Position numbers and translations under genes: made by a program. This document shows, piece by piece, positions 52,428-60,661 of a stretch of DNA of 64,000 nt (the stretch's first letter is position 1; every line of letters begins with the position of its first letter). Source of the stretch: Gracilibacter sp. BRH_c7a (GTDB taxonomy: Bacteria; Bacillota; Desulfitobacteriia; Desulfitobacteriales; Syntrophobotulaceae). Location: contig LOEZ01000067.1 of assembly GCA_001516055.1 (NCBI GenBank), forward strand, positions 1-64,000. Direction: 5' to 3'. Below the pieces are notes generated by a model, which saw nothing but the letters and a program-made list of their open reading frames with translations, was not told where the DNA came from and ran no database searches.

Positions 52428-53789
52428 TTAAGATACAGATATCAGCACATGTCCGACTTTATAAATATCTCCGGCTCCAAGGGTGATAACTAAATCATCC
52501 TTATCCAGCGTTTCATCAAGATAAGAGCTTATTTCTTCAAGGGTAGCAAAGTATTTGGTAGAGATACCTTTCTCTCCGATAAGTTCGGCTAGCTTTGCCG
52601 AGGTAATAGAGCAACTACCGGACTTCTTCTCACGAGCAGAAGAAAAGATTTCTGCTAGAAGAACCTCATCCGCTTCTTGGAAAGATTGGGAGAATTCATA
52701 GAACAGTTTTTCCGTCCTGCTGAAAGTATGAGGCTGAAATACCGCTCTTATTCTTCTCCCTGGAAATGAGCGACGTGCCCCATCCAGAGTAGTCTGGATC
52801 TCCGTTGGGTGATGGGCATAATCATCAACAATAACAGCTCCGTTGCGGCTTCCCAATCTCTCAAATCTTCTCTTAGTACCATTAAAACCTTCCAAAGCAC
52901 GAAGGATATCCGCAGAGGGCACTCCTAACATTGTTGTCAAGGCTATAGCCGCTAAAGCATCTAAGATATTATGCATTCCTGATACATCAAGATTGATACT
53001 ACCGATGCTCTCTCCGTGGACTAGAATATCAAAACTGCACCCTGAATCGTTAAAAGCAATGTTTACAGCTCTAAAATCAGCATCTGAAGATATCCCGAAA
53101 GTTACTTTCTGGGCAGTTGTTTTAATCAGGTCTTTATTGGGGTCTTCATTCCATATAACAAGATGGCCATGAGGCGGAAGCTTCTGAGCTAGTTCATTGA
53201 AAGCTAATATGACATCATCTAAATCACGAAAATAATCCGGATGATCCAACTCCATGTTGGTAATAATCAAACTCTCTGGCGAATAATTTAAAAAGTGTCT
53301 TCTATATTCACAAGATTCAGCTATAAATAAATCACCCAGCCCTGCATGAGCATTGCCCCCTATACAGGGCACATCACTCCCCACCACTACTGTTGGATCT
53401 AGCCCATTATCCAGCAAAATCTTTCCGACCATAGCAGTCGTTGTAGTTTTGCCATGAGTGCCCGCAATACAGACACCTCTCTTTCTGGACATGAGTTTCC
53501 CTAAAAACTGAGGATAAGTGAGGATAGGGATATTCAACTCTTTGGCTTTTGCTATTTCAGGGTGACTCTCATCATAAGCCGCAGAGGTTACAACCAAATC
53601 TGCATTTATCACATTTTCTGAATCGAAACCAAGAGTAATAATCCCGGCTCTCTCCAGTATAATATCTGTAAAAAATCTTTGGTCAACATCAGAACCGGAA
53701 ATGATTGCATCTTCTATCTTGGGAGTAATTTGAGCAAGAGCACTCATTCCGGTTCCTTTAATACCTACAAAATGAATATGTAATTGCAA
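52428..53789 (-). CDS. murC: UDP-N-acetylmuramate--L-alanine ligase
   Basis: 453 residues with the three Mur ligase domains: N-terminal UDP-binding (HFVGIKGTGMSALAQ), central ATPase with P-loop GTHGKTTTT at 110-118 and the ligand Glu/His region FIAESCEYRRHF, and C-terminal VIVDDYAHHPTEI. It adds L-Ala to UDP-MurNAc. The KGTGMSALAQ loop (rather than GIGMSGIA) and location outside a division-cell-wall cluster leave open that it is a MurC paralogue or Mpl-like recycling ligase. TTG start, after GGAAGGAA. It pairs with the carboxypeptidase gene. Confidence 0.85.
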   Translation of the reverse strand: MQLHIHFVGIKGTGMSALAQITPKIEDAIISGSDVDQRFFTDIILERAGIITLGFDSENVINADLVVTSAAYDESHPEIAKAKELNIPILTYPQFLGKLMSRKRGVCIAGTHGKTTTTAMVGKILLDNGLDPTVVVGSDVPCIGGNAHAGLGDLFIAESCEYRRHFLNYSPESLIITNMELDHPDYFRDLDDVILAFNELAQKLPPHGHLVIWNEDPNKDLIKTTAQKVTFGISSDADFRAVNIAFNDSGCSFDILVHGESIGSINLDVSGMHNILDALAAIALTTMLGVPSADILRALEGFNGTKRRFERLGSRNGAVIVDDYAHHPTEIQTTLDGARRSFPGRRIRAVFQPHTFSRTEKLFYEFSQSFQEADEVLLAEIFSSAREKKSGSCSITSAKLAELIGEKGISTKYFATLEEISSYLDETLDKDDLVITLGAGDIYKVGHVLISVS

Positions 53790-54098
53790 AGTACATCGTT
53801 CCTTCCGGTAATCTATTTCTATCTTACATTATACCCAAATATCCTAAAAAAGGTATCATCTTAAGACAAGGAAAATTAAGTTAATTTTTTAATATGCTAT
53901 TGGGCTTACGAAAATCGCTATTCAGCCTTTCCTGTTTGCCGTTAAGAAACCAATCGTATTCTTCTTTTTCATATTATACTATAATAATACTACGCTAGGA
54001 TGTAACAATATCATTACTGACTTGACGTTATAGAAAAAACCGTCGATGAACGGTTAGGTTGAGGGATTAGATATTAGAGGAAAAGAGGCGATTTGAGT
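53790..54098. other. Intergenic region between divergent murC and the orphan AMP-domain gene
   Basis: 309 bp without a gene. It holds a perfect TATAAT (53980-53985) with a poor -35 box, on the plus strand, and no clear hairpin. No remnant of an adenylation N-terminal domain could be recognised here. Confidence 0.6.
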
Positions 54099-54467
54099 AT
54101 GGCTAGTTATGCAACTCTACAGAAGATGGATAACTTAAAAGGGAAAGAACGAGAAAGCGGTATTTTTGTCAATGATAGGTTTATCAGTTATTTTCAGGTT
54201 GAATCAGTACTTTATTCTTTCTCCAAGGTATTAGAAGCGGGAGTAATAGTACAATCTCATAAAGAAGATAATGAAAAACTAAAAATATACCTGGCTCTTG
54301 AAGAATCATTTAATTCTGATGAAGAAAGAGAAAGCTACTGTCAAGAAGTTGAAGAATTTGTAGGACGCAAGTTTTCTTTAAAAATGCCAATAAATGTTCT
54401 CGTCCGTGACAAACTGCCAATGACAAGATCCGGCAAAATTTTAAGATCTGTTTTAATAGATTACTAA
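54099..54467 (+). CDS. Stand-alone AMP-binding enzyme C-terminal domain protein
   Basis: 122 residues. From about residue 24 it follows the C-terminal domain of acyl/acetyl-CoA synthetases: FVNDRFISYFQVESVLYSF (VNG..IS..EVE.. pattern), LEAGVIVQS, then the closing MTRSGKILRSVL with the catalytic adenylation lysine at Lys113. The large N-terminal adenylate-forming domain is absent, and none is encoded next to it. In full enzymes this lysine is the site of acetylation control. The protein may work in trans or be a regulatory decoy. A TTG two codons upstream is in frame; ATG 54099 was chosen. Confidence 0.78.
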   Translation: MASYATLQKMDNLKGKERESGIFVNDRFISYFQVESVLYSFSKVLEAGVIVQSHKEDNEKLKIYLALEESFNSDEERESYCQEVEEFVGRKFSLKMPINVLVRDKLPMTRSGKILRSVLIDY

Positions 54468-54497
54468 AGATAATGTTAATTTTTAATATTTGATTAA

Positions 54498-54532
54498 TTA
54501 GAACCTATACCTTATCCAGGTCTAGGTTCTAA
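54498..54532 (+). terminator. Hairpin after the orphan AMP-domain gene
   Basis: TTAGAACCTA (54498-54507) pairs perfectly with TAGGTTCTAA (54523-54532), with an inner ACCT/AGGT step. The T tail is weak. Confidence 0.55.
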
Positions 54533-54548
54533 TCATTATATAAAAAAG

Positions 54549-54569
54549 CACCTTTCTACAAGAAAGGTG
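54549..54569 (-). terminator. Compact hairpin with a minus-strand T run
   Basis: CACCTTTCT (54549-54557) and AGAAAGGTG (54561-54569) pair over a 3-nt loop; read on the minus strand it is followed by TTTTTT. Confidence 0.55.
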
Positions 54570-54704: not shown

Positions 54705-54732
54705 AATCAGAATGAAATAATGCATTCTGATT
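54705..54732 (-). terminator. Terminator of the small multidrug export gene (minus strand)
   Basis: AATCAGAATG (54705-54714) pairs perfectly with CATTCTGATT (54723-54732); the minus strand continues with a T7 run. It lies 37 bp past the stop codon. Confidence 0.8.
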
Positions 54733-58545: not shown

Positions 58546-59406
58546 ATGGATGAAAGAGATTGGCTTATTCTTAGAGCTTTATATGAACATAAGAATATTA
58601 CTAAAGCTGCCCAAGAACTTTATATGTCCCAGCCTGCACTGACAAATAGACTTAAGGATATAGAGGAAAAGTTTAAAGTAAAGATTGCTATGAGGGGACG
58701 AAGAGGTGTTCACTTTACTCCTCAAGGAGAATATCTTGCAAATTATGCCGACCAAATAATATTAAATTTAAGAAGAATTAAGGAAAATGTCTTAAATTTT
58801 GATAAAAATATTGGAGGCACGCTAAGAATAGGGACATCCAGATTAGCAGCGAAATATCAACTTCCTAAAATACTTAGACTCTTTAGAAATGAGTACCCAG
58901 AAGTAGATTTTAAAGTAATTGCTACTTGGAGTAGAAATATTCCAAATTATTTAAAAAGTGAAGAAGTACATATAGGTATTTTTCGCGGCGAACAGTATTG
59001 GCCAGATGAGAAACACTTGTTATCCGAAGAAAAAATTTGCATAGCGTCAAAAAATAGAATTAAACTCCAGGATCTGCCTAATCTTCCGCGTATCGATTTT
59101 GAGACAGATAGTTTGCTTCAAGTCGAGATCGATAATTGGTGGAAAAGAAACTATACTCAGCCCCCTCAAATCAGCATGGAAGTTGATCAGGTTGACACTT
59201 GTAAGGAGATGGTTATCAATGGCTTGGGATATGCGATTCTCCCGAATATCGTTGTTCAAGGAGTAAAAGATATTGATACTATGGACATATTTAACGAAGA
59301 TGGCCAACCAATAACAAGACGAACTTGGATGGCCTATCAAAAGAAGTCAACTGATATTAATGCAGTCAGAGTGTTCGTTGATTTTGTCAAAAGTAAGAAG
59401 TTCTAA
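58546..59406 (+). CDS. LysR-family transcriptional regulator
   Basis: 286 residues: winged helix-turn-helix at 1-60 (NITKAAQELYMSQPALTNRLKDIEEKF) and a periplasmic-binding-like effector domain from about 88 (GTLRIGTSRLAAKYQLPKIL). The family is normally activated by a small-molecule inducer and controls adjacent genes. It is placed just upstream of the tct operon and is the obvious regulator; the inducer is probably the transported acid. ATG follows GGGAGGGC. A terminator lies immediately downstream. Confidence 0.92.
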   Translation: MDERDWLILRALYEHKNITKAAQELYMSQPALTNRLKDIEEKFKVKIAMRGRRGVHFTPQGEYLANYADQIILNLRRIKENVLNFDKNIGGTLRIGTSRLAAKYQLPKILRLFRNEYPEVDFKVIATWSRNIPNYLKSEEVHIGIFRGEQYWPDEKHLLSEEKICIASKNRIKLQDLPNLPRIDFETDSLLQVEIDNWWKRNYTQPPQISMEVDQVDTCKEMVINGLGYAILPNIVVQGVKDIDTMDIFNEDGQPITRRTWMAYQKKSTDINAVRVFVDFVKSKKF

Positions 59407-59451
59407 GTCCTTAAGAATAATAATTCCTGTCTATATAGGTATTTGAATTAG

Positions 59452-59486
59452 TAATAGATAATTATTCGAATTATCTATTATTTTTA
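59452..59486 (+). terminator. Terminator of the lysR gene
   Basis: TAATAGATAATT (59452-59463) pairs perfectly with AATTATCTATTA (59469-59480) over ATTCG and runs into TTTTTA. Confidence 0.75.
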
Positions 59487-59487
59487 T

Positions 59488-59518
59488 TTGATAAAATGTA
59501 TTAAGATTATTTTATCAA
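59488..59518 (+). promoter_or_regulatory. Perfect inverted repeat upstream of tctC, candidate LysR operator
   Basis: TTGATAAAAT (59488-59497) and ATTTTATCAA (59509-59518) are perfect inverted repeats spaced by 11 nt, a palindromic T-N11-A-compatible layout. It is about 155 bp upstream of tctC. The 150-bp leader that follows has three purine-rich ribosome-site-like stretches but no convincing small gene. Confidence 0.55.
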
Positions 59519-59671
59519 TATTATTAAAATACAAAAAGTGTACCGATAATTTATAAAGACGAAAGGAGCAAGTGCAATAAGAGAGGTGATAATTAATAAT
59601 CTTGTTAGAGGAGGTGATATATTTTTCCGTTTTAATAAAATTATGAATAAAACATGAGGAGGAATTGATAA

Positions 59672-60661
59672 ATGCTTAAAAAAATCTACTTATTAACCAT
59701 TTGTTTGCTGGTAGCTCTTTCGACATTAACCGGATGTTCATCAGCAAGTAAGCCGGCGGATACAGAAAAAGCTAAATGGCCTGAGCGCAAGGTAGAAATA
59801 ATAGTGCCTTTTGGAGCTGGAAGTGGTACTGATACAACAGCCCGTGCCTTAGCTGCTCCCCTAGAAAAAGTGCTTGGTGTTCCCGTTGTAGTCACGAATA
59901 TGGAAGGCGGCGGCGGGATTATAGGTATGGAATATGTCAATAAACAACCAGCTGATGGATATACTTTCATGATTCATTCTCCGACCCACTTGCTTCTGTC
60001 TATTCAAAAACTTTCTGAAGTTGATTTAATCAAAGATTTCGTTCCCGTTACACGTCTTGTTCAAGATTCTGTATTAATAACTGCAAGTTCAAATGGGCGT
60101 TTCAAAACATGGGATGAAGTAGTTGCCTGGGCTGAAGATCACCCTGGAGATGTAACAATTGGTGCTCAGGCACCAAAAGGTGTCGATGCAATAACTGTTC
60201 GAATGATTTCTGCTGGTGCTGGTATTGAAACAAAATTTATACCTTTTGATGGCGGTGCTGAGGTAAAATCTGCTATGTTGGGTGGTCATATAGATCTAAG
60301 TAATGATGATCCCATTAATGCACTAGCCCTTGTTCAATCAGGAGAGTTAAACGCTTTATTAGTTGGAAATGACAAACGACTTCCAGGTTTTCCAGATACT
60401 CCCTGTACAGTCGAATTAGGTATAGACGTAACGGCTGGTCCGTGGCGCGGTATTTCAGCAAGAAAAGATACTCCTGAAGAGGCAATCAAAGGTATGGAAG
60501 TTGCTATAGCTGAAGCTATGAAAAGTGCACAATGGCAGGACTTTGCTAAGAAGGCTATGCTCGATCAGCGACCTGGCTATGCAAATGCCGAAGAATTTTC
60601 AAAGATCTGGGAAGAACAATATCAATTCTATAGTGATGCCTTTGAGAAGTTTGGCTTATAG
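59672..60661 (+). CDS. tctC: Tripartite tricarboxylate transporter substrate-binding protein TctC
   Basis: 329 residues: lipobox TLTGC (Cys near 22) and a Venus-flytrap domain of the Bug/TctC family. WPERKVEIIVPFGAGSGTDTTARALAAPLEKVLGVPVVVTN, GGGGIIGMEYV and ADGYTFM are the usual signature segments; the Asp/Gly ligand loops are present. It captures the carboxylic acid outside the membrane and hands it to TctBA. ATG follows GAGGAGGAATT. The first gene of tctCBA. Confidence 0.93.
   Translation: MLKKIYLLTICLLVALSTLTGCSSASKPADTEKAKWPERKVEIIVPFGAGSGTDTTARALAAPLEKVLGVPVVVTNMEGGGGIIGMEYVNKQPADGYTFMIHSPTHLLLSIQKLSEVDLIKDFVPVTRLVQDSVLITASSNGRFKTWDEVVAWAEDHPGDVTIGAQAPKGVDAITVRMISAGAGIETKFIPFDGGAEVKSAMLGGHIDLSNDDPINALALVQSGELNALLVGNDKRLPGFPDTPCTVELGIDVTAGPWRGISARKDTPEEAIKGMEVAIAEAMKSAQWQDFAKKAMLDQRPGYANAEEFSKIWEEQYQFYSDAFEKFGL

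Follow-up and report, generated by a model that had tools for sequence, protein, structure and literature searches.

A stand-alone AcsA-type C-terminal domain conserved beside murC, possibly retained as a target of the acetyltransferase AcuA

Why a bacterium would encode only the C-terminal domain of an acyl-CoA synthetase is the question raised by a short gene in the 64,000-nucleotide stretch of Gracilibacter sp. BRH_c7a DNA analyzed here (the window). Its product, a 122-residue stand-alone AMP-binding_C protein labeled T below, is read from an ATG start codon (Table 1), and the open reading frame is real, far beyond chance. Pfam PF13193 (AMP-binding_C) matches residues 33–113 along the whole profile (positions 1–76 of 76; E 5.7e-8), with a score of 34 bits against a gathering cut-off of 24.5. 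The nearest full-length family is the acetate–CoA ligase NF003313/PRK04319 (E 1.3e-13), and B. subtilis AcsA (PDB 9g79) is the top PDB sequence match. AlphaFold models T with the expected domain fold (pLDDT 78, pTM 0.70; residues 1–17 disordered), for which Foldseek returned the AcsA chain of the AcsA–AcuA complex entry 9g7f as the top PDB match. The protein consists of the C-terminal domain alone, the N-terminal adenylation domain (PF00501) being absent, and tblastn with two AcsA queries detected no remnant of the missing domain in the 50–58 kb interval or at 17 homologous loci. These results bear out the original prediction of a gene with its own ribosome binding site (GAGGAAAAGAGG, a purine-rich stretch of a kind also present upstream of T at the other loci), a preserved C-terminal domain with a Gly-Lys lysine (G112–K113; the AAA codon of K113 lies at 54435–54437), and no N-terminal adenylation domain upstream, present or decayed.

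Table 1. Features at the T locus, in window coordinates.
Feature	Position	Strand	Basis
murC, divergent neighbor of T	52428..53789	-	TIGR01082 equivalog
murC–T divergent intergenic region	53790..54098	.	no Rfam family; sigma-70-like sites not above chance
Probable ribosome binding site GAGGAAAAGAGG, purine-rich, ~10 nt 5' of T	54077..54088	+	sequence
T, stand-alone AcsA-type C-terminal domain protein, 122 aa + stop	54099..54467	+	ORF, profile and homologue searches
Degenerate A8/hinge segment, residues 15–31	54141..54191	+	alignment to AcsA
A10 loop KLPMTRSGKILR, residues 105–116, with K113	54411..54446	+	alignment

Two terminator-like hairpins lie 3' of T at 54549–54569 and 54705–54732 (four found in the region, against 0.4 expected from shuffling), as would fit transcription of T on its own. 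An RNA element or riboswitch in the gap between murC and T was rejected as a reading, Rfam matches there being only at chance level.

The gene is not peculiar to this genome. Following the suggestion to search for similar stand-alone proteins and conserved neighbors, we surveyed the order (74 genomes, 22 genera, with families labeled f1, f2, and f3) and found homologues of similar size in 18 genomes and 9 genera, at 41–64% identity; besides this genome, 17 carry a stand-alone homologue at the same locus. All 18 genes are divergent from murC, mostly in an argG-argH-nadE-HAD-murC neighborhood, and one named T-bearing organism is Paradesulfitobacterium ferrireducens. Six close pairs whose synonymous sites are not saturated give T a dN/dS of 0.07–0.18, which, together with conservation across 9 genera and 18 genomes, argues that T is not a decaying scrap. 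No stand-alone T was found outside the order: the matches among 398 phylum-wide genomes were all full-length AcsA proteins of 573–614 aa, so the stand-alone form appears confined to two families, f1 and f2. One homologue, that of genome G066 (L048, 1566–2024, minus strand), carries an N-terminal, Asn/Ser/Gly-rich insert of ~36 residues. The gene has also been lost. In the sister species G001 (L125), the interval equivalent to 53900–54541 of the window (T and its flanks) is swapped for ~207 unrelated bases, and this loss is recent and clean. T is likewise cleanly deleted in other genera, and no T remnants were found in the T-less loci.

The source of T can be traced from the third family. In all three f3 genomes (G071, G072, and G073), a full-length AcsA of ~573 aa, identified in G071 as a PRK04319 equivalog at 984 bits, is encoded divergently from murC at the place of T. 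This shows that T derives from a synthetase and contradicts the original prediction of an orphan domain. Outside f3, acsA beside murC was not seen among 22 sampled AcsA loci. In a tree of C-terminal domains, all T proteins group together (SH-aLRT 100) and attach to AcsA, at a weak support of 80, and not to the long Acs that these genomes also encode; the stem leading to T is long, at 3.3 changes per site. Synteny, alignment, and the tree show T to be an old truncation of AcsA that has been kept and reshaped; the direction of change that we infer is the shortening of an ancestral AcsA-type ligase (PRK04319 type, as in B. subtilis) before f1 and f2 split. The simplest history is one truncation before that split and a phase of rapid change, after which T came under purifying selection and was lost several times. 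With its root on a very long outgroup branch, the murC tree places f3 beside f2; if that root is right, a stage with both acsA and T, or a re-acquisition, would be needed.

To see what the truncated protein has kept, we compared 16 aligned T proteins with 24 AcsA proteins. Both the Gly and the Arg of the A8 GER motif are lost in T (neither is kept in any of the 16), the GP that follows GER in AcsA, invariant there like GER itself, is SY in all T proteins, and the last ~14 AcsA residues are missing. In AcsA, GER 464–466 binds CoA and acyl-AMP, and the A8 Gly belongs to the CoA tunnel (PMC11255334). With no substrate site and with the A8 Gly and Arg that are needed in the thioester half-reaction gone, T cannot make acetyl-CoA; the same A8 losses and the missing last ~14 residues make a catalytic role in trans unlikely. 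The A10 loop, KLPxTRSGKIxR, is near-perfect in T, except that the K preceding TRSGK is consistently M (I in one protein) and that there are two conservative R-to-K changes. Its core is invariant (K105-L106-P107, T109, G112-K113, and R116), and the Gly-Lys lysine is present in 16 of 16 and unchanged in every homologue.

The loop that has been kept is the one that an acetyltransferase recognizes in the B. subtilis enzyme. There, AcuA binds AcsA tightly, the K549 loop of the AcsA C-terminal domain sits in the AcuA active site, K549A weakens the complex, and the C-terminal tail of AcuA plugs the CoA site of the AcsA N-terminal domain (PMC11910552). Using as the query B. subtilis AcuA, its sequence checked against PDB 9g7f, we found AcuA in 16 of the 18 T-bearing genomes versus 8 of the 56 lacking T (both/T only/AcuA only/neither, 16/2/8/48; by genus, 9/0/3/10), counts for which Fisher values ignore shared ancestry. 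Within f2, 9 genomes have both, 1 has T only (a 76% complete genome), none has AcuA only, and 36 have neither. Six f1 genomes encode AcuA without T, and full-length acsA occupies the locus in the other two of the eight AcuA-positive genomes lacking T, G072 and G073. Tree-corrected pairs on well-supported branches gave 3 concordant versus 1 discordant, an underpowered comparison that is not significant. The presence of Acs does not explain the pattern, since full-length Acs is widespread in the order, including the AcuA-less genomes of genus g15. Sirtuins were rejected as partners, being found in 2 of 18 genomes with T versus 11 of 56 without (2/16/11/45; no association). An HDAC-like protein of 440–480 aa is nearly universal in the order and hence uninformative about T; a high-scoring HDAC lies beside acuA in G072 and G073 only.

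Gene order around acuA adds to this picture. In G073 (L169), which has intact AcsA, the order is acuA-acuB(CBS+ACT)-acuC(HDAC)-HD, whereas in the f2 genomes compared (L163, L164, L165, L166, L174, and L175) the HD gene comes directly after acuA, or other genes do; the T-bearing Desulfitobacterium-type genomes have kept acuA, with acuB and acuC not beside it. Truncation of AcsA and loss of acuB and acuC coincide, leaving the acetyltransferase and the domain that it recognizes, and the T gene itself is not near acuA. AcuA of the order keeps the active-site residues E102, R108, and H139. Across the order (L161–L175) it is without the C-terminal RFxxRxMY-type tail, also in a genome with full-length AcsA; loss of the tail as a T-specific change was ruled out on that ground, being common to the AcuA of AcsA-bearing and T-less genomes. 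The present genome (96% complete) has no AcuA match. Its acs cluster (contig C30, L160) consists of acs, a gene for a 193-aa protein, and a peptidase-like gene, followed by different content; where P-type-ATPase-like genes interrupt this cluster, relatives carry Mrp-ahcY-acuA.

Given these observations, we suggest with not quite even confidence that what T preserves of AcsA is the half that binds AcuA, and that it serves as an acetylation substrate or decoy. T would bind AcuA and be acetylated by it on K113, and as a competing substrate or decoy, or as an acetyl-CoA-responsive acceptor, it would set the strength of AcuA toward the remaining full-length Acs (643 aa, TIGR02188 type) or other targets. 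In the present genome, T would have a different acetyltransferase as its partner or be en route to loss. The isolated C-terminal domain of Acs is a sufficient substrate of Pat (PMC4053389), which is compatible with such a role. For Salmonella Acs, SlPatA needed 17 residues after the lysine (PMC4053389), most of which T is without. Many relatives have kept T as a protein of its own, the probable reason being that it can still engage the acetyltransferase of such synthetases. The fuller account, which we put forward tentatively, is of an enzyme stripped to the domain recognized by its regulator and kept for longer than a family's divergence as a dedicated acetyl acceptor or decoy by which a lysine acetyltransferase is tuned, a natural pseudo-substrate of AcuA. 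Of the roles originally proposed (a trans-acting domain, a competitor, or an acetylation target), the latter two would fit best, by way of AcuA, and the first is disfavored.

What else could hold such a domain in place? One reading, which we consider unlikely, makes T a conserved protein-interaction domain unrelated to lysine acetylation, for example an adaptor with the A10 loop as its binding surface. Its occurrence in this AcuA-less genome would agree with that, and a stem as long as that of T allows for a complete shift of function; against this, the residue kept most strictly, together with its loop, corresponds to the acetylated lysine loop, and AcuA is found in nearly all T-bearing genomes. 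It also seems improbable that the divergent promoter region shared with murC ties T to murC and cell-wall synthesis, whether as their regulator or by joint regulation with them. The arrangement is invariant, and the genome has no second strong MurC match (this murC is the sole TIGR01082 match at E ≤ 1e-60), but the adjacency is inherited because full-length AcsA occupied the same place; moreover, murC is unchanged where T has been deleted, as in G001, and a Pfam search detected no DNA-binding domain in T.

We give little credence to T acting as a C-subdomain in trans, either completing a core that lacks one or swapping with the C-terminal domain of full-length Acs. The N- and C-terminal domains of ANL-type synthetases are natural structural units when isolated, and both the AlphaFold fold and the adenylation lysine of T are intact, yet the A8 Gly and Arg are gone from every aligned T protein and none of the loci has a core gene linked to T. 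The eight AMP-binding cores (PF00501) of this genome all appear to have a C-terminal domain of their own: six carry PF13193, and the other two are PaaK-like, with sequences that extend through a C-domain-like region as judged by eye. No orphan core that might partner T was apparent among the eight. Least credible is that T is a non-functional acsA remnant that is open by chance. It had been stated beforehand that T would count as a remnant if close relatives had a full-length synthetase here, and in f3 one does exist; derivation from a full-length gene and clean deletion in the sister species and other genera agree with that view. Nevertheless, the frame has stayed open, its motifs invariant, in 18 genomes belonging to 9 genera, and the dN/dS already contradicts a mere remnant.

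Comparison with characterized systems helps to delimit what T may be. AcsA itself (NF003313/PRK04319; PDB 9g79/9g7f) shares with T the C-terminal fold and the A10 loop with its catalytic and acetylated lysine, as well as, in the third family, the murC-divergent locus; lacking the N-terminal domain, the A8 Gly and Arg, and the C-terminal end, T is no enzyme alone. With respect to the acuABC system and the AcuA–AcsA complex (PMC11910552, PMC11255334, PMC13121692), the loop with which AcsA enters AcuA is retained in T, and an AcuA with its active-site residues is encoded in 16 of the 18 T-bearing genomes. The differences are that AcsA is here reduced to its C-terminal domain, that acuB and acuC are not beside acuA in f2, that AcuA is without the tail that inhibits the AcsA N-terminal domain, and that the genome under study has no AcuA match. 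The isolated C-terminal domain of Salmonella Acs (PMC4053389; PDB 4u5y) is a similar excised unit and is acetylated on its A10 lysine in vitro, although it is a laboratory construct, whereas T is encoded in nature and has a shorter C-terminus. The Acore/Asub division of NRPS adenylation domains falls at the same subdomain boundary as T; in this case, however, neither an Acore partner nor a natural-product cluster was found.

T represents a well-bounded natural case of a two-domain ANL enzyme of which only the C-terminal domain survives, and relatives still carry the ancestral enzyme at this locus. Should T indeed bind AcuA, it would amount to a decoy or acetyl-CoA sensor, encoded by a gene of its own, in the lysine acetylation of bacteria. 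The prediction can be tested in organohalide-respiring bacteria and related ones. Our literature searches on stand-alone AMP-binding C-terminal domains or such decoys found nothing relevant, and a decoy or sensor role of this kind did not appear in the literature searched. The case also cautions against assuming that a gene annotated as an AMP-binding C-terminal fragment is a pseudogene. Elsewhere in the window, at 58546–60661, a LysR-type regulator is followed by a TctC/Bug-type solute-binding protein (assigned by reading), possibly representing a tricarboxylate transport operon.
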